A stretch of 35,762 nucleotides of DNA from Bacteroidota bacterium (GTDB taxonomy: Bacteria; Bacteroidota; Bacteroidia; Bacteroidales; UBA932). The translations under genes were made by a program, and so were the position numbers. The DNA lies in contig JAKQLB010000172.1 in NCBI GenBank assembly GCA_029567375.1, positions 1 to 35,762 on the forward strand, given 5' to 3'. This document shows, piece after piece, positions 1 to 18,569 of this stretch; within the stretch, counting starts at the first letter, position 1; every line of letters begins with the position of its first letter. The notes beneath the pieces are model-generated. The model ran no database searches. It saw only the letters and a program-made list of their open reading frames with translations, and was not told where the DNA came from.

Positions 1-260
1 TTATACTCCGATGCGAGGTATCGGGCGAGGTGTACGCTTGCGCCGGTGATCTCCTTGCCGGCACGGGGGAGGGAGTAAACACAGGACTGTGCGAGTTCCT
101 TGTCCTTGCTGATCACCGCAATAACATTCTGAACCGATCTCTCAACGTTACGGGGATAGGCTTTCGCCGTCCTTACCTGAACGTCAATCTCACTCCGGTT
201 CTGAGCCTCCGTTACGGATACGCTTTGCACCTCAACGGCTTCAATGATTTCATTTTCCAT
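1..260 (-). CDS. Conserved phage protein of unknown function, N-terminal part (runs off left edge)
   Basis: An open frame reads leftwards from ATG at 260 to the window edge, giving 86 residues. It starts MENEIIEAVEVQ and contains DVQVRTAKAYPRNV (around residues 26-39) and a later SLPRAGKEITGASVHLAR block. I recall the pattern of a TAKAYPR segment followed by a PR-GK-I-G-SVxLA segment from a widespread phage protein family often seen near recombination and replication genes, but I cannot assign a function from half a protein. It is the last visible gene of the leftmost operon and starts 10 bases after the 58-aa gene upstream. There is no Shine-Dalgarno sequence; the region before the ATG is A/T-rich. 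That it is coding is well supported. A role in homologous recombination is only a guess. Confidence 0.7.
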   Translation of the reverse strand, partial: MENEIIEAVEVQSVSVTEAQNRSEIDVQVRTAKAYPRNVERSVQNVIAVISKDKELAQSCVYSLPRAGKEITGASVHLARYLASEY

Positions 261-270
261 TTGATAGGTT

Positions 271-447
271 TTAACTGTTAATAATAGCGTCCCAATCTTT
301 TCGTGCGGTCAGTAAGCTATAAAGAGTATTTACCCTTTCAGCCTTACATCCCCTGAGCAAGTCAACGCCTGTAATCCGGACATAGATTGCAGAAAGCTCA
401 GATGTTGTTTTTCGCCTAAGGCGATCTTTGATTTTGGGTTTTGTCAT
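271..447 (-). CDS. Small hypothetical protein, 58 aa
   Basis: A short frame runs from ATG at 447 to TAA at 271, giving a basic 58-residue protein that starts MTKPKIKDRLRR and ends DWDAIINS. It overlaps the end of the 86-aa gene upstream by 32 bases and lies 10 bases before the next gene, which fits the packed layout of this operon. No domain is recognised. The C-terminal half (VNTLYSLLTARKDWDAII) looks like a compact helical segment. Coding status rests on the packing and on sensible composition, not on homology. Confidence 0.6.
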   Translation of the reverse strand: MTKPKIKDRLRRKTTSELSAIYVRITGVDLLRGCKAERVNTLYSLLTARKDWDAIINS

Positions 448-676
448 GCTTATAATGGTTAAGTTTCACTTTGCGAATGATTACATTCTTGTAATAGAAA
501 GCCTCATTTTTTGCAATGAAGAACCTTCGTATTGTGTGATACAGGGCTTCTATGCCCTCGGAGGCAAGTAACCATTTAAGGCTTGTATAAGCCTCAACAG
601 TTTTGTCAGCCCATCCTGAGGCGTCGGGGTCTCGGATGTTGCTGATCTTCTCTTTAATGTAAACCGTGTTCTGCAT
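416..676 (-). CDS. Small hypothetical protein, 86 aa
   Basis: The frame starts at ATG 676 (MQNTVYIKEKISNIRDPDAS) and stops at 416. An in-frame TTG at 682 is not needed as the start. The middle (GWADKTVEAYTSLKWLLASEG) looks helical and the C-terminus is strongly basic. No family is recognised. The start is unusual because a TATCTTTG box occupies 680-687, so the ATG lies only three bases downstream of a Bacteroidetes-type -7 element. The message would then be leaderless or nearly so, unless transcription comes from further upstream. This is the first gene of the leftmost small operon. Confidence 0.55.
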   Translation of the reverse strand: MQNTVYIKEKISNIRDPDASGWADKTVEAYTSLKWLLASEGIEALYHTIRRFFIAKNEAFYYKNVIIRKVKLNHYKHDKTQNQRSP

Positions 677-679
677 ACT

Positions 680-711
680 CAAAGATAATTAAATTTAACG
701 ACATTGGTTAA
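680..711 (-). promoter_or_regulatory. Possible promoter (-7 element TATCTTTG) for the leftmost operon
   Basis: On the minus strand TATCTTTG (687 to 680) matches the Bacteroidetes -7 consensus TAnnTTTG exactly. The four bases 20 nt upstream are TTAA rather than TTTG, so the -33 element is weak. The surrounding 60 bases are A/T-rich and non-coding, between the 128-aa gene and the 86-aa gene. Unlike the three strong promoters further right, no TTTAGA-N5-TCTAAA palindrome lies upstream. Confidence 0.4.
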
Positions 712-736
712 TAAATTGCAACAAAGATGCATAAAC

Positions 737-1123
737 TTATTCACCGGTTTCTGACACGTTATTCTCAGGGTCATGAAGGCCTACCCGTTTGGCATATCGT
801 TCCTCTATGAATATGAACCGTACCCCGTCAAAATCTATGTCCTTAAAGATGCGCTTACAGGCCTCTGCCGATACAACCCAAAGCTTGCCGGTACGATAAG
901 GATTGTCTCCTTTTTCTCCGTCCCTGACCTCACACAGCATTACTCCTTTGCGCATGGCCTCTTTACACTCGTTACACGGGCGGCGGGGATCAGCCTTACC
1001 ATGAAACTTTGACATATCAGTAGAGGGTTCACCCTTCCTGTTATATCGTATTGCAAGCAGGATGTCATTATCCTTCCCGCAGTAAAAGCACTTTGTAAGT
1101 GCTACATTCATTTTCTCACTCAT
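737..1123 (-). CDS. Hypothetical phage protein with two CxxC knuckles, 128 aa
   Basis: The protein is 128 aa with CFYCGKD at residues 12-18 and CNEC at about 50-53, so two CxxC pairs are spaced as in a zinc ribbon. A conserved-looking stretch follows (GVMLCEVRDG, then NPYRTGKLWVV). I recall proteins with this order, knuckle-knuckle-DG-PYRTG, as common small phage proteins of unknown function. The start ATG at 1123 overlaps the upstream stop by eight bases (ATGAGTGA), which favours this start over the internal Met5 and suggests coupled translation. It is the last gene of the operon driven from promoter A. Zinc binding is inferred from the Cys spacing. Confidence 0.8.
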   Translation of the reverse strand: MSEKMNVALTKCFYCGKDNDILLAIRYNRKGEPSTDMSKFHGKADPRRPCNECKEAMRKGVMLCEVRDGEKGDNPYRTGKLWVVSAEACKRIFKDIDFDGVRFIFIEERYAKRVGLHDPENNVSETGE

Positions 1124-1400
1124 TTTGTATGATTATATAGGTGTCTAAATCAAATTGTTCTTTGTCCGCAAGGAACTCTATGAGCTTAATGATAGCTCCC
1201 ATAATTGTTCTTGCTATTGTCAGGATCACTCCCGTATCTTTATCCATGATGACATACCGGTTAATATCCGGCGTGCCTATCATGCACCATTCTGAAAGGA
1301 TGAAGGTGTTAGCGAAACGGGAGGCTCGGATTTGCCTCAAGCCGAAGAAATTCGGCTCAAGGTGTAATCCGCTTTCAATAATGAGGGTCTGACTATTCAT
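1116..1400 (-). CDS. Hypothetical protein, 94 aa
   Basis: The frame runs from ATG 1400 (MNSQTLIIESGLHLEP) to 1116. An upstream in-frame TTG at 1418 would lengthen it, but the ATG overlaps the previous stop by eight bases (ATGAATAG), the same junction style as the next gene, so the ATG is preferred. The protein is mixed alpha/beta with a hydrophobic C-terminal half (VILTIARTIMGAIIKLIEFL) that is more likely an amphipathic helix than a membrane span, because charged residues follow at once. No family is recognised. Confidence 0.72.
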   Translation of the reverse strand: MNSQTLIIESGLHLEPNFFGLRQIRASRFANTFILSEWCMIGTPDINRYVIMDKDTGVILTIARTIMGAIIKLIEFLADKEQFDLDTYIIIQNE

Positions 1401-1881
1401 TGACCGGCTCTTTGACAATGTATTTCTTTTCAGCTAAGGCCTTGCAGAACCCCGTCAGCTTTGGCACTTTAACAACCTCCTCAACATAGTCAATGTCGCA
1501 AGCCTCAGTATTCCCAATGATTACCTCAACAATGACTGATTGATGCCGCTCATTAAGCATTTTGGGATATAGCCAAAACGTACCGTCCATTTTGTCCTTG
1601 TCTATGGTTAAGGTTGGTTCGTTATTAAACGCCCTCGCCAACCTACCTATCAGCTTATCAAACTCATCCGGCGGGAACGGTATTTCCTTACCTTCCTCAT
1701 TAACCTTTGGCCTGATAGTTACTCCGGCGTGCCAATATGTCTTTTCCATTTTGAGCCGGTCAAGAGGAATAAGGTCTGCTATGTTCTGCATTACCATACG
1801 GGTAAACATCACATCCTTGGCAAAGTCCTTAACCTCCCTCAGCTTGCGCTTGTATGCGATTAAGTGTTGTTCTGTTTTCAT
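1393..1881 (-). CDS. Hypothetical protein, 162 aa
   Basis: This is a soluble, charged 162-residue protein starting MKTEQHLIAYKRKLREVKDF. The N-terminal 45 residues look helical and the rest alternates strands and turns (EKTYWHAGVTIRPKV, then FWLYPKML). No recognised domain or motif is present. The sequence ACCACAA sits directly before the start ATG, an instance of the leader motif that recurs in this arm. It overlaps the 94-aa gene downstream by eight bases and follows the 380-aa gene by six, so it is clearly in the same transcript. Confidence 0.75.
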   Translation of the reverse strand: MKTEQHLIAYKRKLREVKDFAKDVMFTRMVMQNIADLIPLDRLKMEKTYWHAGVTIRPKVNEEGKEIPFPPDEFDKLIGRLARAFNNEPTLTIDKDKMDGTFWLYPKMLNERHQSVIVEVIIGNTEACDIDYVEEVVKVPKLTGFCKALAEKKYIVKEPVNE

Positions 1882-1887
1882 TTGTGG

Positions 1888-3030
1888 TTACATATTAAGT
1901 TGATTCATGGTTTCCGGTTCTTCGGTGAACACATAGCTACCGGCGATAGCCTGAAGGTCACGCCTCCTTTCTTCGTCCTTATCCCGTGCCATTGCCGAGA
2001 TTGCCTGAGACATCATAAGGTATGAGGGCTTTCCCTGTATCCCGTCATCTTCTGAGTGTTGTAACAGGATTTCCTCAACGGTCTTAACCTCAGGCTTTAC
2101 GAGGCCGAGCTGTGGGAGGCGCTTTATTTCAAGGCTAAGGTTCAGCGGCTTGGCTGAGGCCTCAACTATTTGAGCTTCTTCAAACTCACGGTTACGTTCA
2201 GAGAATATCCATCTCATGCTGTCACGAACCATCAAAGCCCTGACCTCCGTTTCCTTGTTTATGGTCTCAATGGAGAACATGAATTCGTCCGACATACGAC
2301 TACCAAGATGCACCTCTTTCAAGAATGATTTGCCGGTCATGCCGTTTAAACAGGCGGGGTAAAGTTTGAATGACCGCAGTTCGAGTTTCCCCGACCCGAA
2401 ATCTGAGTTCCTTAGCTGAACCCCTCTTGCATAGCTCACAATCCCGTTGTTGGGGGTTTCAACGAAGATTATGTTTGGGTCAATAGCCTCAAGCCAATCC
2501 TTAGACGTTCCCTCGTATGCGCCGATCAGGGGAAGCTTTAGCTCCCGTGCCATCAGCAGGAACATCATGAATATCTCTCTTGTGTTAAGTCGCTTGTATG
2601 AGGTGCTTAACCATCCCCTTACGGTGTCGTTCACGTTCCTGAACAGGAAGCGGTTATCCCGTGCCTCCCTGTTCGTGATGTACTTATTCAGGGCGTAGGT
2701 TACGGCATCGGCCTCATACGGTTTGCCTCCCCTAATTGTGTTAGCTACCCATCCGGCAGGAACGCCGAGGCTTGCGGCGGCCTGATAACCGGCGTGATAG
2801 CTCAGGCCAAGGTTGTGAACCTTATCCGGTGCTTCCGGTATCATAACGCCGATGCCATGAGTGGAACTTTTTAGCACCGTGAACGTGATAAGCCCTGCCG
2901 GAATTACCATATCGTCAATGTGACGATTGATTAGTCTGTCTGACAGCTTTACGCTGTCGATCTCTGCCTTTTCAACAAAGGTATTCACCTTTCGTTGTAG
3001 CACTTGCTGAAGTCCTGTCGTGTCTTTCAT
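1888..3030 (-). CDS. DUF932-like phage protein, 380 aa
   Basis: This is the largest gene of the left arm. Its layout resembles the DUF932 / phage-plasmid-like family: a segment with VRGWLSTSYKRLN (around residues 138-150), then SGKLELRSFKLYPACLNGM (around 214-232) and a KEVHLGSR stretch, matching the S-x-RY-x-x-ld and CLNGM-HLG landmarks I recall for that family. The function of the family is not established; it is common on phages and plasmids. The C-terminal 90 residues are charged and probably flexible. It lies mid-operon, six bases from each neighbour. The family call is from memory of motifs and is moderate; that this is a real gene is not in doubt. Confidence 0.6.
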   Translation of the reverse strand: MKDTTGLQQVLQRKVNTFVEKAEIDSVKLSDRLINRHIDDMVIPAGLITFTVLKSSTHGIGVMIPEAPDKVHNLGLSYHAGYQAAASLGVPAGWVANTIRGGKPYEADAVTYALNKYITNREARDNRFLFRNVNDTVRGWLSTSYKRLNTREIFMMFLLMARELKLPLIGAYEGTSKDWLEAIDPNIIFVETPNNGIVSYARGVQLRNSDFGSGKLELRSFKLYPACLNGMTGKSFLKEVHLGSRMSDEFMFSIETINKETEVRALMVRDSMRWIFSERNREFEEAQIVEASAKPLNLSLEIKRLPQLGLVKPEVKTVEEILLQHSEDDGIQGKPSYLMMSQAISAMARDKDEERRRDLQAIAGSYVFTEEPETMNQLNM

Positions 3031-3036
3031 TTACAT

Positions 3037-3309
3037 TTATTTAGTGGCTTGCGCCGATTTCTTAATGGTTTTGTCAGGGTCAACGCCTCCGCTTACCCTT
3101 CTGAAGGCGGTCTTTGCCTGTGGGCTTACGGGGTGTACGATATATCCTTTTTCTCCTTCAGGGGTCGTGTGGGGCATTACCTCAAACCTCTGCTTTTGGT
3201 CGTTGTAGTACGCCCAAACCTTAGGGCGTATCCCAAGCGGTGAGAGCTTACTGTTCAGCTCCTCAACGCTGTCTGCCTTCACGAAAAACGGGTCATAACG
3301 CTTACTCAT
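3037..3309 (-). CDS. Hypothetical protein, 90 aa
   Basis: This is a small basic protein starting MSKRYDPFFVKADSVEELNS. The first 60 residues look like a compact beta-rich domain (KVWAYYNDQKQRFEVMPH, then KGYIVHPVSPQAK) and the end is a Lys/Ala-rich tail. No family is recognised. Its ATG overlaps the stop of the upstream gene by four bases (ATGA), so translation is probably coupled. Confidence 0.72.
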   Translation of the reverse strand: MSKRYDPFFVKADSVEELNSKLSPLGIRPKVWAYYNDQKQRFEVMPHTTPEGEKGYIVHPVSPQAKTAFRRVSGGVDPDKTIKKSAQATK

Positions 3310-3818
3310 TTCTGCTTCCTTTCGTATGTCAGTTGGTGAATAAACTCATCCATGTACTTTACGATTTCACGCATTGCGTAGAACTCCTCAAGACCTACGG
3401 CGTTATGAAACAGTCCGGTGCTGTTCATCAGTCCGTGATAGTTCATTCTTTCGGTAGTTTGATCTCTGAATGTGGTTACCGTCTTCAGGGCGAACCGCAG
3501 GAGGTCTTTGTAGTCGGCCTCACGCTTCGAGAGGTCTTCGCCGGAGGTGTCAAGGTATTTCATTTTGCTAACGTACTTGCTTATGGTTTCCCTGAGAACC
3601 ATCAGGGTGCGCCTCTTAAATACGTTCCGTGCAACCGTGCCGCCCTCCCAAGCCACTAAGTATGCGAGGTCTGCATTTTCCTTGTTGACGGCCTGTTTGA
3701 ACTCGTCAATCTTCTCTGTTGTCCAAATGATCCTCATTGCGAGTATCCTGACAAACTCGGTGTAACTCCTTTCGGCGGGGCTTTGCGGCTGTGTTAAGTC
3801 TGTGGTTTTCGTTTCCAT
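3306..3818 (-). CDS. Hypothetical helical protein, 170 aa, first gene of operon A
   Basis: The start is taken at ATG 3818 (METKTTDLTQPQSPAERSYT). The longer reading from 3887 would begin upstream of the promoter -7 box at 3857-3864 and so cannot be transcribed from it. A third in-frame ATG at 3854 lies only two bases past that box and would need a leaderless message. The protein is almost wholly helical and charged, with an RRTLMVLRETISKYVSKM helix near the middle and a C-terminal YERKQK. No family is recognised. The leader contains AAAAACCACAAA. It is the promoter-proximal gene of a six-gene run down to 737. Confidence 0.72.
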   Translation of the reverse strand: METKTTDLTQPQSPAERSYTEFVRILAMRIIWTTEKIDEFKQAVNKENADLAYLVAWEGGTVARNVFKRRTLMVLRETISKYVSKMKYLDTSGEDLSKREADYKDLLRFALKTVTTFRDQTTERMNYHGLMNSTGLFHNAVGLEEFYAMREIVKYMDEFIHQLTYERKQK

Positions 3819-3856: not shown

Positions 3857-3888
3857 TAAAGGTAATCATTTGCGTTGAACTATGCAAA
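3857..3888 (-). promoter_or_regulatory. Promoter A (TTTG-N20-TACCTTTA)
   Basis: Read on the minus strand, TTTG (3888 to 3885) is followed after exactly 20 bases by TACCTTTA (3864 to 3857). This matches the Bacteroidetes sigma-ABfr pattern of TTTG at -33 and TAnnTTTG at -7. It heads the 170-aa gene and the five genes after it. The same element with the same 20-base spacer appears at 5750-5781 and 6945-6976, which makes chance very unlikely. Confidence 0.85.
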
Positions 3889-3921
3889 TATATTGCCGTT
3901 TATTTGCACCTTGGGCGGTAA

Positions 3922-3938
3922 TTTAGAAACGGTCTAAA
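3922..3938. promoter_or_regulatory. Operator-like palindrome A, TTTAGA-N5-TCTAAA
   Basis: A perfect 6-bp inverted repeat with a 5-bp spacer (AACGG as read on the plus strand) lies 33 bases upstream of the -33 box of promoter A. It overlaps the stop codon of the 86-aa gene. The bases between it and the promoter keep a conserved GNGGnGTAAT-type edge found also in copies B and C. Its place upstream of the promoter fits an activator site better than a repressor site that blocks polymerase, but either is possible. Confidence 0.8.
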
Positions 3939-4194
3939 CAATGGCTTCCGGCGGGAGGTCTTCATTGGGGATTTCCCAAAGGTGATGGCAGTATGGATGA
4001 ACGTTCACAAACTCACGCTTGGGCGGGAATAACTGAGCCATAGTTACGTCATCAGGGATGTACCGGTAACGGGCTTCCTTAATCTCATTGTAAGACGGTG
4101 AACAGTTCGGGGTGCTGATAGACAAATGCCATAGGCCGTTATCCTGAGATACCAACACTCGGCATCTCCCCATCTGATATACCTTGATGTTCAT
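3934..4194 (-). CDS. Conserved phage protein with WHLSIS/ARYRYIPDD motifs, 86 aa
   Basis: This 86-residue protein has WHLSISTPNCSPSYNEI at about residues 23-39, then ARYRYIPDDVTMAQLFPP and HPYCHHLWEI. I recall this series of blocks as a conserved small family in phages and prophages of many hosts, annotated only as a domain of unknown function (possibly DUF7694; the number is from memory). Its function is unknown. It overlaps the gene upstream by four bases. Its TAG stop lies inside palindrome A, so the operon ends where the next regulatory module begins. Confidence 0.78.
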   Translation of the reverse strand: MNIKVYQMGRCRVLVSQDNGLWHLSISTPNCSPSYNEIKEARYRYIPDDVTMAQLFPPKREFVNVHPYCHHLWEIPNEDLPPEAIV

Positions 4195-4433
4195 ATCCGG
4201 TAACGGTTAATCAGTTGCTCAAGCTCCCGCTGAAAGTTCTGCATCTCAGTACCGGAGATGACACACAGTAAAAGTGATCCGTCTTCGGACTTGAGAGTAA
4301 CCTTTGTGTCCATAAACTCACCCTTAAAGGTTTCCACCTCATACTCTGCTGTAAGGGGAATAGACCCTCCCAACGAGTAGGCAAACGTTCTGAATTTAAC
4401 ATCATATCCCATCGTGGCGTATTTGAAGTTCAT
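4191..4433 (-). CDS. Hypothetical protein, about 80 aa
   Basis: The frame is open back to 4496, but that would overlap the 70-aa gene by 95 bases. Starting at ATG 4433 (MNFKYATMGYDVKFRTFAYS) cuts the overlap to 32 bases, and ATG 4412 (MGYDVKF) to 11; I cannot decide between the last two. The product is beta-rich (GGSIPLTAEYEVETFKGE, then KVTLKSEDGSLLLCVI) with a C-terminal helix ending INRYRI. No family is recognised. Its stop overlaps the next start by four bases. Confidence 0.65.
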   Translation of the reverse strand: MNFKYATMGYDVKFRTFAYSLGGSIPLTAEYEVETFKGEFMDTKVTLKSEDGSLLLCVISGTEMQNFQRELEQLINRYRI

Positions 4434-4614
4434 ACTTAGTTCCGAAAGGTCCGGTATAGTATCCGTCCTTAATGATCTGATCAATGATCTGCTCAATCCA
4501 TTCGGGGCGCTTCCCTTTCTTAAGGTTGATCATCCTGAATGTTTCAGTAGTCATCTGACCTCCATCTGATCCGTCAGAGTAGGTCACCGTAAATCGCAAA
4601 TTGTCTTTGTCCAT
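4402..4614 (-). CDS. Hypothetical protein, 70 aa
   Basis: This is a 70-residue protein starting MDKDNLRFTVTYSDGSDGG. It has a short beta domain followed by a basic linker (NLKKGKRPEW) and a helix (IEQIIDQIIKDG). No family is recognised. The leader has AACCACAAAAA about 14 bases before the ATG, the recurring motif of this arm. It lies 17 bases after the gene upstream and overlaps the next one. Confidence 0.68.
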   Translation of the reverse strand: MDKDNLRFTVTYSDGSDGGQMTTETFRMINLKKGKRPEWIEQIIDQIIKDGYYTGPFGTKYELQIRHDGI

Positions 4615-4631
4615 GTGGCTTATTTTTGTGG

Positions 4632-5012
4632 TTAATCGAATAGTCCTAAGTCCTTCCTTTCGGCGGGGGTTCTCCTGTCAAGCTTCATGATCGGCTCGGG
4701 GTAATGCTCATGCTTAATCTCAGCCTTCACCACCGTTGCCCTGTTGTGGCGTTCCCTGTAAGACGCTCCCCGTAAAGCCGGATGCTGTTCCTGTAATAGT
4801 TGCCTCGCCCTCCGGATGCTTTCAGGGTCAGCGTAAGTTCCCTTGATGAATTCACCGGCGAAGTCCAAGAATGAGTATGCCGACCATCGGAGCTGTGGGT
4901 TCTGAATAGCCCAAACCTTCAGCGTTAATAACCGGTCATTATCTTGGGTTTCCGGCGATCCGGTCAACAGTCCATAAACCGTTGCTTTGATTGATCTGAT
5001 CTTGTTAATCAT
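4632..5012 (-). CDS. Hypothetical protein, 126 aa, with a strong ribosome binding site
   Basis: The start is ATG 5012 (MINKIRSIKATVYGLLTGSP). It is preceded by AAAGGAGG about five bases upstream, one of only two clear Shine-Dalgarno sequences seen in the window, which settles the start against an upstream in-frame TTG at 5027. The protein is soluble and helical with WAIQNPQLRWSAYSFLDF near the middle and a charged C-terminal region (HNRATVVKAEIKHEHYPEP). I recognise no family with confidence. It follows the 65-aa Cys-motif gene by 11 bases. Confidence 0.72.
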   Translation of the reverse strand: MINKIRSIKATVYGLLTGSPETQDNDRLLTLKVWAIQNPQLRWSAYSFLDFAGEFIKGTYADPESIRRARQLLQEQHPALRGASYRERHNRATVVKAEIKHEHYPEPIMKLDRRTPAERKDLGLFD

Positions 5013-5017
5013 ATTGC

Positions 5018-5024
5018 CTCCTTT
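5018..5024 (-). promoter_or_regulatory. Shine-Dalgarno sequence (AAGGAGG) for the 126-aa gene
   Basis: On the minus strand AAGGAGG lies five bases before ATG 5012. It overlaps the stop codon region of the 65-aa gene. It is unusual here because most genes in this arm have A/C-rich leaders with no such sequence. Confidence 0.7.
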
Positions 5025-5221
5025 CAAATTGTATTAACATCAGCACATTGCAGGTCACTTTCAGGTGTCCAACACTCTTTACAAAGTACGGGGTATCCGT
5101 GAGTATATAAGATTGCTTTTTCCCCCTTGTGGTGTTTTGCTTGGTTTTCTTCATCCATGAAGTAGCACCCGCACTCAGTACAACAAGTGCCATCGATCAT
5201 GTCTTCTGCTATTTCTCCCAT
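5024..5221 (-). CDS. Small phage zinc-finger-like protein, 65 aa
   Basis: This 65-residue acidic protein has DGTCCTECGCYFMDEE near residues 10-25 and GYPVLCKECW near 42-51, giving two CxxC pairs about 30 residues apart. The order C-x-x-C-G-x-YF ... HGYPVxCxxCW is familiar from small phage proteins thought to bind one zinc ion. The function is unknown; a role in binding nucleic acid or protein is plausible but not shown. It lies 13 bases downstream of the 158-aa gene in operon B. Confidence 0.78.
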   Translation of the reverse strand: MGEIAEDMIDGTCCTECGCYFMDEENQAKHHKGEKAILYTHGYPVLCKECWTPESDLQCADVNTI

Positions 5222-5234
5222 TGCGCTTTTCTTT

Positions 5235-5711
5235 TTATGATTTGAGGTTGTTAATTATCCATTCAGTTTCAGTCTCTTCGAGTTCCACCTTGTTAATAAG
5301 CTTTGCCTTGATGACCTCGGCTTGCGGGAAGAACTGATAACTCAGTTCGTATGGGCTTTGCTCCCATTCATGGGTCACGAAGCTTTTAAGGATTTCCTTC
5401 AGCTTCTCGGTCATCAGGTTGTTCTCTGCCTCATATTCTTGAAGCTCGCTTTTTAGTCTTTCATTGGCAACTATTAGTCTGTTCCATTCAGTTTCTAATT
5501 CGCTGCATCTGCTTTCGAGATCACGTTGTTTGTTCAGGTCTGTCGTTCCGAGCATCAGCGTGAAGTCATTTTTGATGTTTTTGATCATGGCCTCAACGTC
5601 TGCTTCAGTAAACCAATCTGCGAAGTAGCCGTTTCCGGCGGCGAGCTTTTCTATTAGGCGAATTTCTTCGGCCTTACTTAGGCTCTTTTCGGTGTTTGTC
5701 GGTGTGCTCAT
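5235..5711 (-). CDS. Hypothetical coiled-coil protein, 158 aa, first gene of operon B
   Basis: Starts MSTPTNTEKSLSKAEEIRLI. A long heptad-like helix (NKQRDLESRCSELETEWNRL and on through ERLKSELQEYEAENNLMTEKL, about residues 60-110) predicts a coiled coil. The ends are acidic. No family is recognised. It is promoter-proximal to promoter B; its leader carries two ACCACA motifs within 22 bases of the ATG. Confidence 0.72.
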   Translation of the reverse strand: MSTPTNTEKSLSKAEEIRLIEKLAAGNGYFADWFTEADVEAMIKNIKNDFTLMLGTTDLNKQRDLESRCSELETEWNRLIVANERLKSELQEYEAENNLMTEKLKEILKSFVTHEWEQSPYELSYQFFPQAEVIKAKLINKVELEETETEWIINNLKS

Positions 5712-5749
5712 GGTGTGTGGTTTTTGTGGTGTTTATCTTGTTTACAGTA

Positions 5750-5781
5750 TAAAGATAACTCATTCACTTGAATTGCGCAAA
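5750..5781 (-). promoter_or_regulatory. Promoter B (TTTG-N20-TATCTTTA)
   Basis: On the minus strand TTTG (5781 to 5778), a 20-base spacer, then TATCTTTA (5757 to 5750). It matches the Bacteroidetes -33/-7 pattern and has the same geometry as promoters A and C. It leads, after a leader of about 38 bases, into the 158-aa gene and five more genes. Confidence 0.87.
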
Positions 5782-5814
5782 TAAAATACAATGTATTTGC
5801 AGTACGGGGTGTAA

Positions 5815-5831
5815 TTTAGAGTTGGTCTAAA
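5815..5831. promoter_or_regulatory. Operator-like palindrome B, TTTAGA-N5-TCTAAA
   Basis: A perfect 6-bp inverted repeat around GTTGG, 33 bases upstream of the -33 box of promoter B. It is flanked on the promoter side by GGGGTGTAAT, identical to copy C and close to copy A. Same arrangement and spacing as the other two copies. Confidence 0.82.
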
Positions 5832-5869
5832 TAAGAAAAGGGAGTATTTCGATTTTCTAACCCGCTCCC
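5830..5869 (-). terminator. Possible terminator of operon C
   Basis: On the minus strand GGGAG (5869-5865) can pair with CTCCC (5844-5840), followed by TTTTCTTATTT. The stem is only five base pairs and the loop is 20 bases, so it is weak by the usual rules. Its place, about 90 bases after the last gene of operon C and just before palindrome B, supports it somewhat. Confidence 0.35.
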
Positions 5870-5959
5870 CATGTTCGGTAAATAGCCTTTCCTCCGTCTG
5901 ATCAGGTATGCGGAAAACCACAACCGCAATCCTTCTCCTAATGGTTACTCAGCACGATC

Positions 5960-6151
5960 TTAATTAGGGTTAAGCCTTATCCGGTCAATGATCGTGAAGA
6001 CCTTATATTCTGAAGGGTCACCTTCATCAACTATGCGGATCGTTATGATCCTCTCAGGATAGCTCACCTCCCTGTATATTTTGAAATGCCGGTTGTTTAT
6101 GACATGGGATGTAATCTTGTCCTCTGTCCTTATGTATATTGCTTTTGCCAT
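5960..6151 (-). CDS. Hypothetical protein, 63 aa
   Basis: The start is taken at ATG 6151 (MAKAIYIRTEDKITSHVINN), four bases after the stop of the upstream gene. A longer reading from 6184 would overlap that gene and is less likely. The product is small and beta-rich with SYPERIITIRIVDEG and KVFTIIDRIRLN. No family is recognised. It is the last gene of operon C. Confidence 0.62.
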   Translation of the reverse strand: MAKAIYIRTEDKITSHVINNRHFKIYREVSYPERIITIRIVDEGDPSEYKVFTIIDRIRLNPN

Positions 6152-6155
6152 TTCG

Positions 6156-6380
6156 TTAAGCTTTTGAGTATCCTTCTTCATCAAGTGAGCCTATGGCCTG
6201 ATCTGATATTACGAAAGCCTTTCCTTCATCAACGTATTTTCGTGCCTGAAGATACGGTATTCGGGTCAAAAGTATTCCGTTTACCCAATACTGAACATGG
6301 GCTGTCTTAACGTTTGATGAGTCCAACTGCCATTCTTTTGGCCGGTACTTGTACGGGGTTTGTAGCTTTGGATGTATCAT
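6156..6380 (-). CDS. Hypothetical protein, 74 aa, with a strong ribosome binding site
   Basis: Starts MIHPKLQTPYKYRPKEWQLD and ends EEGYSKA. AAGGAGGAC lies about eight bases before the ATG, the second of two clear Shine-Dalgarno sequences in the window; it begins at the TAA of the 59-aa gene. The protein looks like a small alpha/beta domain (AHVQYWVNGILLTRIPYLQA). No family is recognised. Confidence 0.68.
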   Translation of the reverse strand: MIHPKLQTPYKYRPKEWQLDSSNVKTAHVQYWVNGILLTRIPYLQARKYVDEGKAFVISDQAIGSLDEEGYSKA

Positions 6381-6393
6381 GGTTTCGTCCTCC

Positions 6394-6573
6394 TTAGTAC
6401 ATTGTTACGCCCTTCAGCCTGATCAGGCCGTCTGTTCCAAGTTCTACTCTGAACTCCTTAGGGTTCAGGCTCAGTTTCAGTTCTGCGTAGTAAGCCATTG
6501 CGGCTGTTACGTTTCCGAAGTACACGAATTCGGTTTCTCCGGTGGTTCTGTTGATGATCTTTACGGTTTTCAT
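6394..6573 (-). CDS. Small hypothetical protein, 59 aa
   Basis: The frame runs from ATG 6573 (MKTVKIINRTTGETEFVYFG) to TAA 6394 and gives 59 residues ending LGTDGLIRLKGVTMY. The pattern of short strands, a helix (NVTAAMAYYAELKL) and strands suggests a compact ferredoxin-like or similar small fold, but no family is recognised. AAAACCACAGGACT stands directly before the ATG, another copy of the arm's leader motif. Packed 13 bases from the next gene. Confidence 0.65.
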   Translation of the reverse strand: MKTVKIINRTTGETEFVYFGNVTAAMAYYAELKLSLNPKEFRVELGTDGLIRLKGVTMY

Positions 6574-6675
6574 AGTCCTGTGGTTTTAATTGTTGTTTAT
6601 GGTTACGGACACCCTCTGTCCGGTTATCTGCACTGTTCTTTGGCGGTCATTTCGCTCATCTCTGTAGTTTTTAAG

Positions 6676-6909
6676 TTATGCTTCGTAAAAAATCTCAATC
6701 TCGTTATCTATCTCAGCGTCCGTCGGGTTGCCCTGCGGGTACATCCTCATTGTGTTGCGGTAAATTGCCTTCCAGTCCGTCCCGGTCATCTCAAGGTAGT
6801 TGGCCTCGGCCATCCTATCCTGTATCCGGGCGGTCAGGGCTTCGTCGTAGTTGGCTTCCTTGTAGCTGATTAGCCTTAGCTTGCCTTCCGTTGTTTTGAT
6901 TACTTTCAT
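6676..6909 (-). CDS. Hypothetical protein, 77 aa, first gene of operon C
   Basis: The start is taken at ATG 6909 (MKVIKTTEGKLRLISYKEAN), which leaves a leader of about 35 bases after promoter C. Longer in-frame readings begin in or next to the -7 box. The protein is acidic and helical (YDEALTARIQDRMAEANYLE) and ends DNEIEIFYEA. No family is recognised. Its leader has two ACCAC motifs (AAAACCACAAAAAACCACGA). A 102-base gap before the next gene has no supported gene. Confidence 0.68.
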   Translation of the reverse strand: MKVIKTTEGKLRLISYKEANYDEALTARIQDRMAEANYLEMTGTDWKAIYRNTMRMYPQGNPTDAEIDNEIEIFYEA

Positions 6910-6944
6910 CGTCGTGGTTTTTTGTGGTTTTTTCATCTTCATAG

Positions 6945-6976
6945 TAAAGATAATACATTCAGTTAACATTTGCAAA
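6945..6976 (-). promoter_or_regulatory. Promoter C (TTTG-N20-TATCTTTA)
   Basis: On the minus strand TTTG (6976 to 6973), 20 bases, then TATCTTTA (6952 to 6945). The -7 box is identical to that of promoter B. It heads the four-gene operon down to 5960. Confidence 0.87.
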
Positions 6977-7008
6977 TAAAATAGGCTTTATTGCGGTCAG
7001 GGGTGTAA

Positions 7009-7025
7009 TTTAGATGAATTCTAAA
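7009..7025. promoter_or_regulatory. Operator-like palindrome C, TTTAGA-N5-TCTAAA
   Basis: A perfect 6-bp inverted repeat around TGAAT, 32 bases upstream of the -33 box of promoter C and flanked on the promoter side by GGGGTGTAAT as in copy B. The spacer differs in all three copies, so the two arms are what is conserved. Confidence 0.82.
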
Positions 7026-7517: not shown

Positions 7518-7571
7518 ATCGTTTATCGTGGTTTTTAATTACCGCAAAAGATTTTGTTAATTGAAAACGTT

Positions 7572-7579
7572 TATATTTG
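7572..7579 (+). promoter_or_regulatory. Probable -7 element (TATATTTG) of the rightward promoter
   Basis: TATATTTG matches the Bacteroidetes -7 consensus exactly and ends 15 bases before the first rightward ATG at 7595. No TTTG lies at the ideal 19-20 base distance; the nearest (7553-7556) is 15 bases upstream. The divergent 77-base gap must also drive the minus-strand 149-aa gene, but I see no good element for that direction. Confidence 0.5.
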
Positions 7580-7594
7580 TACAAAACATAACTG

Positions 7595-8167
7595 ATGGTA
7601 GAAAAGCTTCAGATCGAATGGGTTAAAATCTCAACGTTAGAGGTTAACTCAGGCCAAATCGAAGGGGTTCCAACTAATCCAAGGTTTATCAAGGACTCAG
7701 GGTTTCGGGCTTTAGTGCAAAGCATAAGTGAAGACCCTGATTTCATGTCAGCCAACCCTCTCAAGGTTTATAAGAACGTAGTCATCGGGGGCAATATGCG
7801 CCTCAGAGCTTGCCGTGAGCTTAAGTGGAAGGAGATACCAATAGTCCGGTTTCCGGATGATACGCCTCCCGATATTCTTAAGGCAAGGGCTATAAAAGAC
7901 AACCACCATTACGGAGAAGACGATTGGGATGCTCTCGCTAATGAGTGGGATGACGTTCCTCTTAATGAATGGGGGGTATTCAAAGATCATGTAACTTTCA
8001 ATCCAAACCTCAGTCCGGAAACGGCTCAGGGGCAGGTTACTGAGGCTGACATTAACCACGCCCAAACGGAACTTAGCAATCAATTCGTTTCCTCAGAGCC
8101 GCAGATGTTTGAGATTATCTGTCCTAAGTGTGGTAATGAATTCAATGTCAAAGATCCCTCGAAATGA
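7595..8167 (+). CDS. ParB-like (sulfiredoxin/ParB N-terminal fold) protein with C-terminal Cys knuckle
   Basis: This 190-aa protein has the ParB/sulfiredoxin-type core: VKISTLEVN near residue 10, NPR at 28-30, and VIGGNMRLRACRELKW at about 63-78, which is the GG-x-x-R nucleotide/phosphate-binding box of the fold. A C-terminal CPKCGNEF (176-183) is half of a zinc ribbon. Phage proteins of this type act variously as CTP-binding DNA-binding proteins, nucleases or helpers of DNA-modification enzymes; which applies here is not visible. It is the first gene of the rightward operon, 15 bases after a -7 box, and overlaps the next gene by four bases. The fold is clear; the activity is not. Confidence 0.78.
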   Translation: MVEKLQIEWVKISTLEVNSGQIEGVPTNPRFIKDSGFRALVQSISEDPDFMSANPLKVYKNVVIGGNMRLRACRELKWKEIPIVRFPDDTPPDILKARAIKDNHHYGEDDWDALANEWDDVPLNEWGVFKDHVTFNPNLSPETAQGQVTEADINHAQTELSNQFVSSEPQMFEIICPKCGNEFNVKDPSK

Positions 8168-8433
8168 ACAAGAAACAAGTAGCGGCATTTTTAGAGGGCG
8201 AAGAATGGACTTTTGCAAAGACCATGCCGACAACTCCGCATTGGTACATAATAAAGCAAAAGTGTTCCGACCCTGATAAGTTCGTTGAGGCAGCTGAATA
8301 TTTACAGGCCAACGGAGTGCCGCATAGGTTCTTCAAGAAGGTTTATCTGTACTCATTTTTCGGCAAGTACAAATATTGGACTAATGGATATCCCATTGAT
8401 CAAACGGATGTTATTAACCGTGCCGAGATATGA
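8164..8433 (+). CDS. Small conserved phage protein of unknown function, 89 aa
   Basis: The protein starts MNKKQVAAFLEGEEWTFAKT and contains TTPHWYIIKQKC and YWTNGYPIDQTDVINRAE. The run WTFAKTMP...PHWY...YWT-G-P...T-x-x-INR is familiar from small proteins near methylase or ParB-like genes in other phages, but no function is known to me. It overlaps both neighbours by four bases (ATGA type), so it is translated together with the ParB-like gene and the unknown gene after it. Confidence 0.72.
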   Translation: MNKKQVAAFLEGEEWTFAKTMPTTPHWYIIKQKCSDPDKFVEAAEYLQANGVPHRFFKKVYLYSFFGKYKYWTNGYPIDQTDVINRAEI

Positions 8434-8990
8434 TATACAGTATTGAATATTGCCACGTTTATACCTCCTCAGGCGTTGATGAACTTGCGGAGAATTCAAT
8501 ATCTGCACTCCGTGATGTGCTTAAGGACGTGAAAGATACTCCTTATGAGTTAGCGGTGATGGTTGATGACTATTCGCCCAAGGATAAGACGGACTTTGAT
8601 TATAAGGCCTTCATAGACTACCTTAATGTTCATAAGGTTGTTCCTTCCTTGTTCATAAAGGAGAGTGATCTGCTTGGAATAAACAGAAAAATACTTGACC
8701 GGCTTCCTAATGGTAAGCTACGGCAATCCTATGTCAATTACATTTTAACAAAAGAACAGCATCCTTGCTCTCTCTTTGTGGCTTCTTGGTATATGCTAAG
8801 GTTAGGGTTGGTGACGGCATCTAATGGTGATCCTGATAGTGTTAAGATGGTTCAGCCGGCAGACCGATTAATAAATATTCTTCCCGCATATTTCATTGAT
8901 GCCGAAAACAGGGCGGCAAAGATATTACGGGCTTTAGGCGTTCCTTATTCAACCACCATAATGAACATCTATCTTGAAAACAAAAGCTGA
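8430..8990 (+). CDS. Unknown protein, 186 aa
   Basis: Starts MIYSIEYCHVYTSSGVDELA. The N-terminal 60 residues read like strand-helix-strand (RDVLKDVKDTPYELAVMVDDYSP), and the C-terminal half is helical (SLFVASWYMLRLGLV, then AENRAAKILRALG). I do not recognise the family. Its place between a ParB-like gene pair and a SAM methyltransferase, with overlaps of 4 and 17 bases, implies a joint function with them. Confidence 0.7.
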   Translation: MIYSIEYCHVYTSSGVDELAENSISALRDVLKDVKDTPYELAVMVDDYSPKDKTDFDYKAFIDYLNVHKVVPSLFIKESDLLGINRKILDRLPNGKLRQSYVNYILTKEQHPCSLFVASWYMLRLGLVTASNGDPDSVKMVQPADRLINILPAYFIDAENRAAKILRALGVPYSTTIMNIYLENKS

Positions 8991-9681
8991 TATTTGGAAC
9001 AGGTTTTCACCTGATAGGTATGTTAAGCAGAACTATGCGAACATGAAAGTTCAGGATGTGTTAATCCTGTATCGCATTTTTACCCGTCACCAAAACAGAA
9101 CGGGCGGGGTTATAATGGAGGTTGGGGGTGCGGTTAACCTTTATCCGGTTTTAGCAATGCTGCCGTTTTATGATCGGGTCATTATAACTGACATCACGGA
9201 TGCAAACCTCCATTACTTGTCATCTCAGATATCAAAGCTTGATAAGGTATGGATGCAGTACATTGACGTGATCAGGACGTTTGACTTATCGTTACAGGGA
9301 TATGATTTTCAGGCCGAGCTAAAAAAGAAGGTTCATTATCAGCGGGTGTCAGTATTCGATCTGCAGACTGATATTGTCAATCATATCAGCATGAACTTTT
9401 TGGCTGAAAGCATAACCGATAAATACACTACCTTTTATGATGCTTGCCAATGCGTTAAGAAGGCCGTCCGGAAGGGAGGGCAAATAACAGCAACATTCAT
9501 GTCGGGGTCAACCGGATATAAGGTAAACGGACACCGGTTTCCGGCGGTTAATATCTCAACGGAACACGTTATAGATGCCTTTGCCGACATGAAGGAGGCG
9601 TTTGCTGTTAATATTCCTATGGTTGGCAACCCCGTCCGGAAGGGGTATTCAGGTATCATTTATTACCAAGGGAAAAGATGA
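8974..9681 (+). CDS. SAM-dependent methyltransferase, NNMT/SCO2525-like
   Basis: The protein is 235 aa. The SAM-binding motif I region is VIMEVGGAVNLYPVLAMLPF (about 46-65), followed by VIITDITDANLHYL (motif II). Later NFLAESITDKYTTFYDA (141-157) and ATFMSGSTGYKVNGHRFPAV (173-192) match the pattern I recall for the actinobacterial SCO2525 methyltransferase family, related to nicotinamide/phenylethanolamine N-methyltransferases, which mostly act on small molecules. The only possible start after the in-frame stop at 8962 is TTG 8974 (or a non-standard codon); there is no ATG until residue 24. It overlaps the upstream gene by 17 bases and the next by four. The substrate is unknown; the methyltransferase call is firm, the subfamily moderate. 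Confidence 0.78.
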   Translation: MKTKADIWNRFSPDRYVKQNYANMKVQDVLILYRIFTRHQNRTGGVIMEVGGAVNLYPVLAMLPFYDRVIITDITDANLHYLSSQISKLDKVWMQYIDVIRTFDLSLQGYDFQAELKKKVHYQRVSVFDLQTDIVNHISMNFLAESITDKYTTFYDACQCVKKAVRKGGQITATFMSGSTGYKVNGHRFPAVNISTEHVIDAFADMKEAFAVNIPMVGNPVRKGYSGIIYYQGKR

Positions 9682-10310
9682 TAGCCGCCATTTATACTAT
9701 CCCCAAAAGGTTTGAGCTTATGAGGGCGTTAAAGGACAAGATTAAGCCCTCCGTTGATGAGGTACGAATTTTCATGGATGGGGATTACAGGGGGAATTGG
9801 TGGAACCATCAGCGAACACTCTCTGAAATGTTACCCTTAGCGAAAAAGGATGAGCCGGTATTGATAATGACGGATGACGTTACTACCGTTCCTGATTGGA
9901 GGGAGAGATGGGAAAAAATACATGAGGCGGCAGGCTCAGAGATTTATTGTTTATTCACCCGCAAGAGGCACTTGTTTAAAGAGGAAAATCTTAAACGTGG
10001 ATTTGTTACAGGGGTGCACCTAAGGGGGTTTTATGATCAGGCCACAATTTACATTAACCGGCCGTCGCTTATCAATGACGTAATCAAATGGTTCAATGAA
10101 ACGGGGAAACAGACAAAGCCGTTTCTCCCACCGCTTGAGAAAAGAGGCAATCACCTTGACGTTGTGATCCAAGAATATCTTGTGGCTCATAACATAGAAT
10201 GGACGGTGACAGTTCCTACTCTCTTTGATCATTTACAGGTCGGGTCTTCCCTCGGACATGATATCGGAGGATCACCGCTTTATATAGGAAACCATGAGGA
10301 TTTATCTTAA
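9678..10310 (+). CDS. Glycosyltransferase-like protein (probable GT-A fold), 210 aa
   Basis: Starts MIAAIYTIPKRFELMRALKD. The centre holds PVLIMTDDVTTVPDWRERWE (60-79) with D66-D67 in the place of the metal-binding DxD of GT-A enzymes. The C-terminus has HLDVVIQEYLV and then VPTLFDHLQVGSSLGHD, like the conserved Q-H-x-G/SSLG end of several phage and LPS-type glycosyltransferases. There is no signal peptide or membrane span. It overlaps the methyltransferase by four bases and the PAPS-reductase-like gene by 17, so it belongs to the central cassette rather than to the sugar cassette at 15.7-20.3 kb. The substrate could be DNA, protein or a small molecule. Confidence 0.58.
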   Translation: MIAAIYTIPKRFELMRALKDKIKPSVDEVRIFMDGDYRGNWWNHQRTLSEMLPLAKKDEPVLIMTDDVTTVPDWRERWEKIHEAAGSEIYCLFTRKRHLFKEENLKRGFVTGVHLRGFYDQATIYINRPSLINDVIKWFNETGKQTKPFLPPLEKRGNHLDVVIQEYLVAHNIEWTVTVPTLFDHLQVGSSLGHDIGGSPLYIGNHEDLS

Positions 10311-11529
10311 GGAAAACGTTTGGGATGCGGCACTTAATCGCATAAGGTATCTCTATGATGAGTTTCCTAAGGTTATCTGTCAATTCTCCGGCGGGAAGGA
10401 CAGCACGGTATGTTTACATTTATGCCTTAAGGTTGCCAAGGAGAAAAACCGGCTACCGCTTACAGTATTTTTCATTGATCAGGAGGCCGAATGGGATGCA
10501 ACCATTGACTATGTGCGGGAGGTTATGGCTATGCCCGATGTTGACCCCGTATGGTTGCAGATGCCGATAAGAATATCAAACACAACATCACCAACAGAGA
10601 GGTGGCTGTGGTGTTGGGAAGAAGGGGCAAAGTGGCTCAGGGAAAAAGAACCGAACAGTATCAAAGAGAACGTTTACGGAACGGTGACTTTCAGGGAGGT
10701 TTTTGCGGCCTATGCCCGTTATCACTATCCTCATACTCCTGTTGCAATGATAGGCGGCGTAAGGGTCGAAGAGTCGCCGGCAAGGGCTATCGGTTTAACT
10801 CATTTTGCTACCTATAAGCATATCACTTGGGGGGTAGGGGCAAGCAGGAAGCTTAAGCACTTCGGCTTTTACCCTCTTTATGATTGGACGTACATGGATA
10901 TTTGGAAGGCCATACATGATAACCATTGGTCTTACTGCAAAATGTATGACTACTACTATATGTACGGGATACCGGTTCAGCATATGAGGGTCTCAAACGT
11001 ACATCACGAAACGGCGGTCAGGAGCTTATATTTCATGCAGGAGATTGAGCCTGATAATTGGAACAGGCTTACTCAGAGGCTTAAGGGAGTGAACACGGCT
11101 AAGCATGGTCAGAATGATCTTTTTGCTGCGCCTCGTACTCCGCCGGCAATGTTTAAGGATTGGAAGGAGTACGCTAATTATCTATTGGAGAACCTAATTT
11201 CAGAACCGGAGATTAAAGAGATATTTCAGAGAGAATTTAAGGCCTTTGAGAGCCGGTATAACTATGGCAATGATTTGGTTCTGCGAGACATGTACCGTCA
11301 GCTTGCGGCGGCGGTCATTGCCGATGACTACCACATGACAAAGATTAAGTCGTGGCAGACACGGGCGGATACCGCACAATGGCGTAAGTGGAAGACTACG
11401 GGGGTGCGGCATAATAACTTTTCAAATAAGTACATTGACTATGAACTTAGTAAAGGAAATCAGGGAAGCGTTCAGCAACAGCACGGACAAGATCAAATTA
11501 GCGAACACGCTGAGGAAAGTGATCTTTGA
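10294..11529 (+). CDS. PAPS-reductase-like PP-loop protein, IbrA-like
   Basis: The protein is 411 aa. A PP-loop QFSGGKDSTVCLHL lies at about residues 30-43, the ATP-pyrophosphatase motif of PAPS reductases, DndC and tRNA thiolases. FIDQEAEWDATIDYV follows, then a C-terminal region with YPLYDWTYMDIWKAI, typical of the IbrA/DUF3440 group. IbrA is known next to IbrB (ParB-like) in Escherichia coli accessory DNA and in many phages; the biochemical role is unproven. The pairing is kept here, with the ParB-like gene starting 89 bases before this one ends. The domain supports adenylation chemistry (sulfur or phosphate transfer) but no substrate is visible. Confidence 0.82.
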   Translation: MRIYLKENVWDAALNRIRYLYDEFPKVICQFSGGKDSTVCLHLCLKVAKEKNRLPLTVFFIDQEAEWDATIDYVREVMAMPDVDPVWLQMPIRISNTTSPTERWLWCWEEGAKWLREKEPNSIKENVYGTVTFREVFAAYARYHYPHTPVAMIGGVRVEESPARAIGLTHFATYKHITWGVGASRKLKHFGFYPLYDWTYMDIWKAIHDNHWSYCKMYDYYYMYGIPVQHMRVSNVHHETAVRSLYFMQEIEPDNWNRLTQRLKGVNTAKHGQNDLFAAPRTPPAMFKDWKEYANYLLENLISEPEIKEIFQREFKAFESRYNYGNDLVLRDMYRQLAAAVIADDYHMTKIKSWQTRADTAQWRKWKTTGVRHNNFSNKYIDYELSKGNQGSVQQQHGQDQISEHAEESDL

Positions 11530-12133
11530 GGAAAGCCCTGTTAATTCTCAGCCGGTTGATTACGTCCGGTGGGTCCCAATAGAAATGGTGCGGGCAAACG
11601 ACTATAACCCTAATAGCGTTGCGAGGATTGAGATGCAACTGCTTTATACGTCAATATCCCATGATGGGTACACTCAGCCTATTGTTACCGTTTGGGATGA
11701 CGTGAATGAAAAGTATATTATCGTTGATGGTTTTCACCGGTACTTTGTAGCTAAAAGCAATAAGGATATTCTTGATCGCAATAAAGGAATGCTCCCGATA
11801 GTTGTTATTGATAAGAGTATAAATGAACGCATGGCCTCAACCGTCAGGCACAACAGGGCGAGGGGAAAACACTTAATGACCGGCATGAGCAGTATGGTCT
11901 TTGAGATGTTGGAAAACGGATGGAAGGATGAGGACATTTGTAATGAGTTAGGAATGGAGCCTGAGGAACTGATAAAGCTTAAGCATATCACCGGTTTCTC
12001 GAAACTGTTCAGTAACGTGGAATATCGAAAAGCATGGGAGACAAACCAACAGGTTAAATTGAGATTGGAACATGAGCGAAAAGAGGCAAAAGAGAGAGAA
12101 CAAGACGGGGAGGCCGGAGGTCGTTTTTACTGA
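11441..12133 (+). CDS. ParB-like protein, IbrB-like
   Basis: The protein is 230 aa. Start ATG 11441 (MNLVKEIREAFSNST) is preferred to an in-frame TTG at 11435. It has the ParB core: VPIEMVRANDYNPN (45-58), DGYTQPIVTV (75-84), VDGFHRYFVAK (95-105), then ERMASTVRHNRARGKH (129-144) and a helix-turn-helix-like WKDEDICNELGMEPEELIKL. The RHNRARGKH block and the partner gene identify the IbrB type. The C-terminus is a charged helix. It overlaps the IbrA-like gene by 89 bases and the small terminase by 62, deep overlaps that argue for obligate co-expression. Its molecular activity is not established. Confidence 0.8.
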   Translation: MNLVKEIREAFSNSTDKIKLANTLRKVIFEESPVNSQPVDYVRWVPIEMVRANDYNPNSVARIEMQLLYTSISHDGYTQPIVTVWDDVNEKYIIVDGFHRYFVAKSNKDILDRNKGMLPIVVIDKSINERMASTVRHNRARGKHLMTGMSSMVFEMLENGWKDEDICNELGMEPEELIKLKHITGFSKLFSNVEYRKAWETNQQVKLRLEHERKEAKEREQDGEAGGRFY

Positions 12134-18565: not shown

Positions 18566-18569
18566 AAAT

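Follow-up and report, generated by a model that had tools for sequence, protein, structure and literature searches.

The window analysed here is a stretch of 35,762 nucleotides, i.e. the whole of contig C297 (JAKQLB010000172.1) in a 3.38-Mb bin (3,376,362 bases, 400 contigs) of a Bacteroidota bacterium of lineage UBA932 (GCA_029567375.1), and by its gene content it is a fragment of a tailed-phage genome. On its minus strand, three promoters are each preceded by a perfect palindrome, TTTAGA-N5-TCTAAA, and the same arms recur in front of promoters in many other viral contigs at distances that differ by whole turns of the DNA helix. Together with natural insertions and deletions of about 10 bp, these whole-turn distances represent the geometry of an activator, and we consider it probable that each window module consists of a phage promoter and, ahead of it, an activator site whose most likely binder would be a protein of the Fur family. 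Taken by its parts, and as judged from sequence comparison, the activator module appears well supported and the window can be assigned to the phased class of modules with fair confidence; Fur as the binder is plausible, if unproven, and membership of the window in a Fur-bound class is a possibility.

Three promoter modules in the window

Each module reads, on the minus strand, TTTAGA-N5-TCTAAA-TTAC-NN-CCC, TTTG, N20 and TA[CT]CTTTA; the inferred gene start follows 33-39 bp past the TA[CT]CTTTA box in all three cases, and the palindromes are centred roughly 76 bp before the promoter's own inferred start. The elements are:

3922..3938, minus strand: palindrome of module 1 (minus-strand sequence TTTAGACCGTTTCTAAA)
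3857..3888, minus strand: promoter of module 1, TTTG-N20-TACCTTTA; palindrome-to-TTTG gap 33 bp
3884..3907, minus strand: second inverted repeat of module 1, GCAAATA-N10-TATTTGC, over the -33 box (read by eye)
5815..5831, minus strand: palindrome of module 2 (minus-strand sequence TTTAGACCAACTCTAAA)
5750..5781, minus strand: promoter of module 2, TTTG-N20-TATCTTTA; gap 33 bp
5777..5800, minus strand: second inverted repeat of module 2, GCAAATA-N10-TATTTGC, over the -33 box (read by eye)
7009..7025, minus strand: palindrome of module 3 (minus-strand sequence TTTAGAATTCATCTAAA)
6945..6976, minus strand: promoter of module 3, TTTG-N20-TATCTTTA; gap 32 bp
6972..6994, minus strand: imperfect second inverted repeat of module 3 at the -33 box, one base shorter (by eye)

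An earlier, sequence-only reading of this DNA had placed the three palindromes and the three promoters exactly here, 32-33 bp apart, and all of these positions are correct; the other inverted repeat, at the -33 box, had escaped it. Its description of the modules as identical is true of the arms and of the 20-bp spacer length, but modules 1 and 2 agree at only 56 of 82 bases, the five bases inside the palindrome differ (CCGTT, CCAAC and ATTCA), and the edge it gave as GNGGnGTAAT is found in two of the three modules, whereas GGGnnGTAAT holds in all three. Arms that remain constant (12 of 12 bases in every module), while the inner bases and about one third of the alignment of modules 1 and 2 have changed, are as expected of a protein-binding site.

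The palindrome is also rare. The window contains three exact matches to TTTAGA-N5-TCTAAA, to which a search with two mismatches adds none, and these are the only exact copies in the entire bin. Since triples are quite ordinary at the two-mismatch level (three or more matches were seen in 26 of 100 shuffles), the unusual point is that all three are exact. Among 6-nt inverted repeats with spacers of 0-12, no other than TTTAGA with spacer 5 reaches three copies in the window, and none of 20 dinucleotide shuffles of the window produced such a triple. Matches to TTTG-N19-21-TAnnTTT in the window are confined to the three module promoters. A search of 395 genomes from the phylum of the bin gave the full module only as the window's own three copies and one elsewhere with a gap of 30; the module therefore looks like a phage arrangement.

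With three matches that have N20 and TAnnTTTA (the last base being A, not G), the promoters themselves are, by their sequence, Bacteroidota promoters of the usual -33/-7 kind. The palindromes are separated from TTTG by 32-33 bp and thus do not lie over the region from -33 to +1, as would a classical repressor operator; the second inverted repeat, unlike the palindrome, does overlap the -33 box. This GCAAATA-N10-TATTTGC repeat may be a second operator. GCAAA before TTTGC occurs in 6 of 88 modules, with 0.25 expected by shuffling, and of these six modules two come from the window and three others are alike.

Helical phasing of the palindrome in other phage contigs

Three scans of IMG/VR for palindrome plus promoter, with gap ranges of 28-38, 18-48 and 2-32 bp, gave at least 120 matches each and at least 205 in the pool (the 123 matches with gaps of 28-38 include the window's own three), which condensed to at least 90 distinct modules when modules less than 25% different were merged. 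Among the 90 distinct modules listed, the gaps cluster at 11-12 (7 modules), 22-24 (22) and 33-34 bp (30), with five more at 42-45 bp, so that perhaps a fourth helical-turn position exists at 43-45 bp. Just two modules lie at 13-19 bp and four at 25-31 bp, though all three scans covered 28-32; the other 20 listed modules have gaps of 4, 5, 7, 10, 20, 21, 32, 35, 36, 38 or 39. For a period of 10.5 bp these gaps give a circular R=0.60, and within the 28-38 range 30 of 39 distinct modules listed are found at 33-34 bp. The window gaps fit this 33-bp class, and the window alone shows just the 32-33 position.

Closely related promoters tell the same story. When core promoters at least 78% identical with gaps differing by at least 3 were compared, the gap difference was 9 bp in 78 pairs, 10 bp in 505, 11 bp in 24 and 5 bp in three, i.e. 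9-11 bp in 607 of 610 homologous pairs, which are not independent of each other. An example of such a natural insertion is provided by loci L420 and L298, which have nearly identical promoters with gaps of 43 and 33. For the module family as a whole, both the gap peaks at whole turns and the 9-11-bp indels would place the palindrome on a constant face of the helix. Among the 17 matches with a gap of 28, seven loci share one sequence that is not promoter-like, six belong to the cluster around L240 and four are single.

A scan for the palindrome plus TTAC alone yielded at least 120 IMG/VR stretches. Among the 108 distinct sites listed that had room around them, a promoter lies within 110 bp on the TTAC side in 39 cases and on the other side in one, at offsets of 11-12 (16 sites), 15 (1), 22-24 (9), 33-34 (5), 65 (2) and 76 (7), near-copies not being merged here. 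Other 6-nt arms produced at most three modules each at the same loci versus 148 for TTTAGA, a comparison that is more informative for the pooled offsets than for the numbers, because the loci had been picked for TTTAGA. A single exact palindrome is present in 113 of 121 stretches.

The proposal of the sequence-only reading that the three promoters form a phage regulon gains support from the same arms standing at phased distances before promoters elsewhere, and its preference for an activator over a blocking repressor is strengthened by the helix-phased distances in so many other contigs. Its suggestion to look for conservation in related phages has a divided answer: the exact palindrome is absent from the relatives searched, as detailed below, but phages further removed show its arms again, in the same orientation and at the same spacing. 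No match was obtained with a pattern that joined the palindrome edge to the second repeat.

The window's own terminase relatives (L137-L237) often carry a different element upstream of their promoters, GTTAA[AC], frequently as AAAGTTAAAC..GTTTAAC. GTTAAA is the commonest hexamer there (36 of 178 distinct promoters), and the 51 GTTAA[AC] sites lie at 39-42 (24), 50-52 (10), 18-20 (5) and 9-10 bp (3) before TTTG, with nine elsewhere (R=0.74 at 10.5 bp). As this unrelated element is phased as well, helix-phased upstream sites may be a general habit of Bacteroidota phages.

Candidate binding proteins and alternative mechanisms

For the Bacteroidota species Riemerella anatipestifer, a Fur box ATTTAGAATTATTCTAAAT has been predicted, and gel-shift data support promoters with putative Fur boxes, although the single boxes in the paper's table, in the part of it considered here, are degenerate (PMC5609570). 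The phage consensus, ATTTAGAATCATTCTAAAT, equals this predicted box save for the central base; in the 33-bp class it reads CTTATTTAGAATCATTCTAAATTT among the matches listed. Of the 395 genomes from the same phylum as the bin, 23 contain the exact sequence TTTAGAATNATTCTAAA, in 28 copies altogether, with none for the reversed control. One locus in each of these 23 genomes was viewed, and ten proteins from nine loci were run through Pfam: neighbours include FUR, FeoB, a heme oxygenase, two TonB receptors and a glutamyl-tRNA reductase with an AraC-type regulator, as well as a class V aminotransferase (SufS-like in look), a flavin reductase-like protein and a solute-binding protein. In genome G405, the FUR gene starts directly behind its box. 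Because the phage consensus matches the published box and this box adjoins several host iron genes, the phage site looks like a host Fur box that has been moved upstream.

Within the 32-35-bp class of IMG/VR modules listed, the inner T is kept in 59 of 64 and the inner A in 56 of 64. Neither inner mark is present in 11 of 91 distinct modules listed, and nine of these 11 are nonetheless in phased positions, so the arms may suffice. The window modules belong on this side of the family: the outer arms ATTTAGA/TCTAAAT of ATTTAGAATNATTCTAAAT are complete in modules 2 and 3 and have one mismatch in module 1.

The sequence-only reading had found no regulator, and the window still gives none; the Fur family enters as a candidate from outside the window, i.e. 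from host genomes, one paper and Fur-like genes of phages. No FUR (PF01475) match over the cut-off was obtained in 24 virus records from the pattern scan, which may be fragments. One record (G478) has a match of 15 bits, below the cut-off, to a helix-turn-helix open reading frame that looks unrelated. The family phrog_13084, a broad profile that matched all 14 control genomes, had no match in 52 virus records (44 from pattern scans, eight relatives), again possibly fragments, and blastp revealed no protein family shared by more than seven of 16 sets, the seven being mostly one phage group. The absence of a FUR gene or of a widely shared family from the site-bearing records therefore favours a host factor. 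Some phages, however, do bring a Fur-like protein of their own. Polaribacter phage Freya_1 encodes Freya1_9 (L577:4082-4510), annotated as a ferric uptake regulator family protein and identical in 17 Polaribacter phage records, with a 32-bit match to FUR confined to residues 23-97, the winged-helix part. The same phage has three Fur-type boxes, of which two are exact and the third has one mismatch; they precede the portal gene and two other virion-region genes, two of the boxes lying 5-7 bp ahead of a TATATTTG box, where the -33 element would be. Similarly, the 63,869-base IMG/VR contig L076 encodes a FUR-family protein (35 bits, 4307-4798, minus strand) and bears a TTTAGA-N5-TCTAAA site 12 bp ahead of a TAACTTTG box. 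Taken together, host Fur seems a plausible leading candidate for the binder, with a phage-carried Fur-like protein taking this role in a few phages.

In mechanistic terms, the host RNA polymerase of the -33/-7 type would read the three phage promoters, a dimeric protein would bind the palindrome on a helix face that allows contact with this polymerase, and the bound dimer would turn on three early operons together. In many phages of Bacteroidota type, the same arms stand one to three, or perhaps four, turns of the helix upstream of the -33 box, and the dimer would most likely belong to the Fur family, being usually the host's Fur and in a few phages a Fur-like protein of their own. The comparisons show the sites, their absence from the rest of the bin, the phasing, the natural 10-bp indels, the match between the phage consensus and a published Bacteroidota Fur box, and the position of that box next to host iron genes. 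We infer that binding activates, that Fur binds, that the operons are expressed early and that the window, whose sites lack the inner AATNATT, follows the same scheme. The wider generalization that Bacteroidota phages widely use Fur as an upstream helix-phased activator, mostly the host's and in some cases their own, with the window as a variant, is more tentative and in our judgement falls somewhat short of an even chance.

A number of observations weigh against this Fur-activator reading. The phasing figures for the palindrome rest on the matches listed (at least 120 per scan), and the gap bins were picked after the data had been seen, which makes binomial figures rough. The gap-28 cluster (L240, L354 and kin), 5 bp off L078, is a true exception and was retained as a counterexample to phasing; 69 of the 108 palindrome-only sites listed have no recognisable promoter within 110 bp. 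When two mismatches were allowed, palindromes were in general no more frequent in 25 virus records than in the reversed control, and the signal therefore lies in the exact sites. Among relatives, no exact palindrome occurs in 83 related loci (1.22 Mb; 80 found by terminase, L124 and two C327 pieces) nor in any of eight selected whole relative records, one of which has it with one mismatch; the relatives found by the phrog_1362 protein or the terminase are likewise without an exact copy. With respect to Fur, the inner AAT-N-ATT of ATTTAGAATNATTCTAAAT is missing from every window module, and the window sites are therefore filed as relatives of Fur boxes, not as Fur boxes. The bin has a single FUR protein (55 bits), with no site of at least 10 of 12 arm bases in the 6 kb around its gene, and the bin outside the phage shows no excess of Fur-type boxes (14 near-matches including the three phage sites versus 19 in the reversed control). 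Of the host sites, two of 23 are inside reading frames, and several are without a clear iron neighbour. Finally, Fur usually acts as a repressor on the core promoter, and in L400 the box ahead of the host fur gene seems to occupy such a position.

The same activator architecture could also be served by another protein, i.e. a phage-encoded or other host dimeric regulator with TTTAGA half-sites, encoded in the missing part of the phage genome or in the host. Window sites that hold the arms only, phased modules without the inner AATNATT and the bin genome without a host box would all be in line with such a regulator, and the phased GTTAA[AC] element of the terminase relatives suggests that different proteins can use this geometry. 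The match of the published Fur box to the phage consensus, the lack of any family common to more than seven of the 16 sets and the Fur-like genes carried by some phages nevertheless make a non-Fur binder rather unlikely, though it is the strongest competitor.

Still less likely is a repressor that acts by looping or upstream contact and for which phase would matter because a loop is formed with a second site, e.g. GCAAATA-N10-TATTTGC at -33. Loops need phasing too, Fur is best known as a repressor, and window modules 1 and 2 do have the second repeat over the -33 box. This repeat, however, differs in sequence from the palindrome and is present in only 6 of 88 modules, most stretches (113 of 121) have just one exact palindrome, and several whole-turn distances better fit contact with polymerase. 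Very improbable, in our view, is a Fur sponge, in which phage sites that match the host box soak up host Fur and so release iron genes of the host from its control: it would need no fixed promoter distance, which leaves phasing unexplained, and 113 of 121 stretches have a single exact site. Both looping and sponge explain less than does activation by a phased dimer. Chance or mere shared ancestry, with an AT-rich palindrome copied whenever its promoter was duplicated, to which the likeness of modules 1 and 2 beyond the arms (56 of 82) might point, is the least likely of all in view of arms fully kept while inner bases change, of shuffles without a triple and of phased recurrence in modules at least 25% different.

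Operons, phage setting and known systems

Three inferred operons follow the window modules:

3..3818, minus strand: operon behind module 1, with a phrog_1362 protein at 1888-3030
3934..5711, minus strand: operon behind module 2, first gene 5235-5711 (158 aa)
5960..6912, minus strand: operon behind module 3, open reading frames 6676-6912, 6396-6572, 6156-6380 and 5960-6184

The genes behind modules 2 and 3 are small and mostly without assigned function; no PHROG family was found for the three open reading frames of the module-3 operon that were searched. When the first gene of operon 2 served as a protein query, no viral relative was obtained, and local tblastn gave five distant relatives, two of them copies of one phage (L227 repeats L190); distant homologues also come first behind promoters in L181, L186 and L190. 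At its left end operon 1 runs into the first part of a protein with a relative in L124 (phrog_3657), behind which a RecE/YqaJ-like exonuclease is encoded in L124; by its gene content, operon 1 is therefore probably an early DNA-recombination operon.

The minus strand of the window is occupied by small genes over about 1-7.5 kb, followed on the plus strand by ParB-like, PAPS-reductase-like, terminase and capsid genes. Both window ends lie in open reading frames, so the phage genome is incomplete. Megablast with the window's first 25,000 bases found no match to them in the phage collection. The window terminase has relatives at 47-70% identity in the best 80 IMG/VR loci and further ones in 21 loci of bacterial genomes from Bacteroidota. 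Terminases related to it are also encoded in the same bin by contigs C327 (L130, L131; 50% identity) and C63 (L132; 33-38%), and by this measure the bin therefore appears to contain several related phages or prophages; C327 and C63 have no exact TTTAGA-N5-TCTAAA. The window phage may be mis-binned.

Ahead of the plus-strand unit that begins at 7595 lies a TATATTTG box (7572-7579), a short spacer away from a TTTG, and no palindrome is present there (7550-7595, read by eye); the virion genes in the window therefore seem to be controlled otherwise than by the palindrome modules. A PAPS-reductase/DUF3440 protein (10294-11529), flanked by ParB-like proteins (7595-8167 and 11435-12133) and accompanied by a methyltransferase-like protein (8974-9681), perhaps makes 7595-12133 a DNA-modification or nucleotide-sulphur module. 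Ahead of the capsid genes, a row of glycosyltransferase-like and NAD-epimerase-like genes (15695-20269, judged by eye from translations) is common to several relatives at 45-70% identity.

Bacteroidota are a major phylum of gut and sea, and one motif with one distance rule offers a testable class of activator across many uncultivated phages, for which the natural 10-bp insertions represent ready-made experiments. If Fur is indeed the binder, infection would be tied to iron, with phage gene expression following the iron state of the cell. In titles and abstract openings, a scope that left most subscription journals outside, we found no report of Fur boxes before Bacteroidota phage promoters or of how these phages time their genes by such sites.

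Among known systems, the closest likeness in sequence is to the Bacteroidota Fur box (ATTTAGAATTATTCTAAAT predicted, ATTTAGAATCATTCTAAAT as phage consensus). In the part of the Riemerella study considered here, -7 and -33 elements are named, the boxes are near the start codons of genes under Fur control and Fur is discussed as a negative regulator (PMC5609570), whereas the phage sites are upstream of -33 at helical steps. Compared with this box, the window sites hold the outer arms only. In geometry, the model is class I activation of the CRP type, in which the site for a dimer precedes the core promoter and is tolerated at several positions spaced by single turns of the helix. The phage sites share this arrangement, but with another, odd-length palindrome and a Bacteroidota -33/-7 promoter. 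The consensus of the latter is TTTG-N18-21-TAnnTTTG; the window boxes end in TTTA, and an operator is added. As to biology, the Shiga toxin 1 genes of lambdoid prophages are under the control of Fur as a repressor on the core promoter. The window modules would likewise place a phage-borne operon under a putative host Fur, but through an upstream, phased site.

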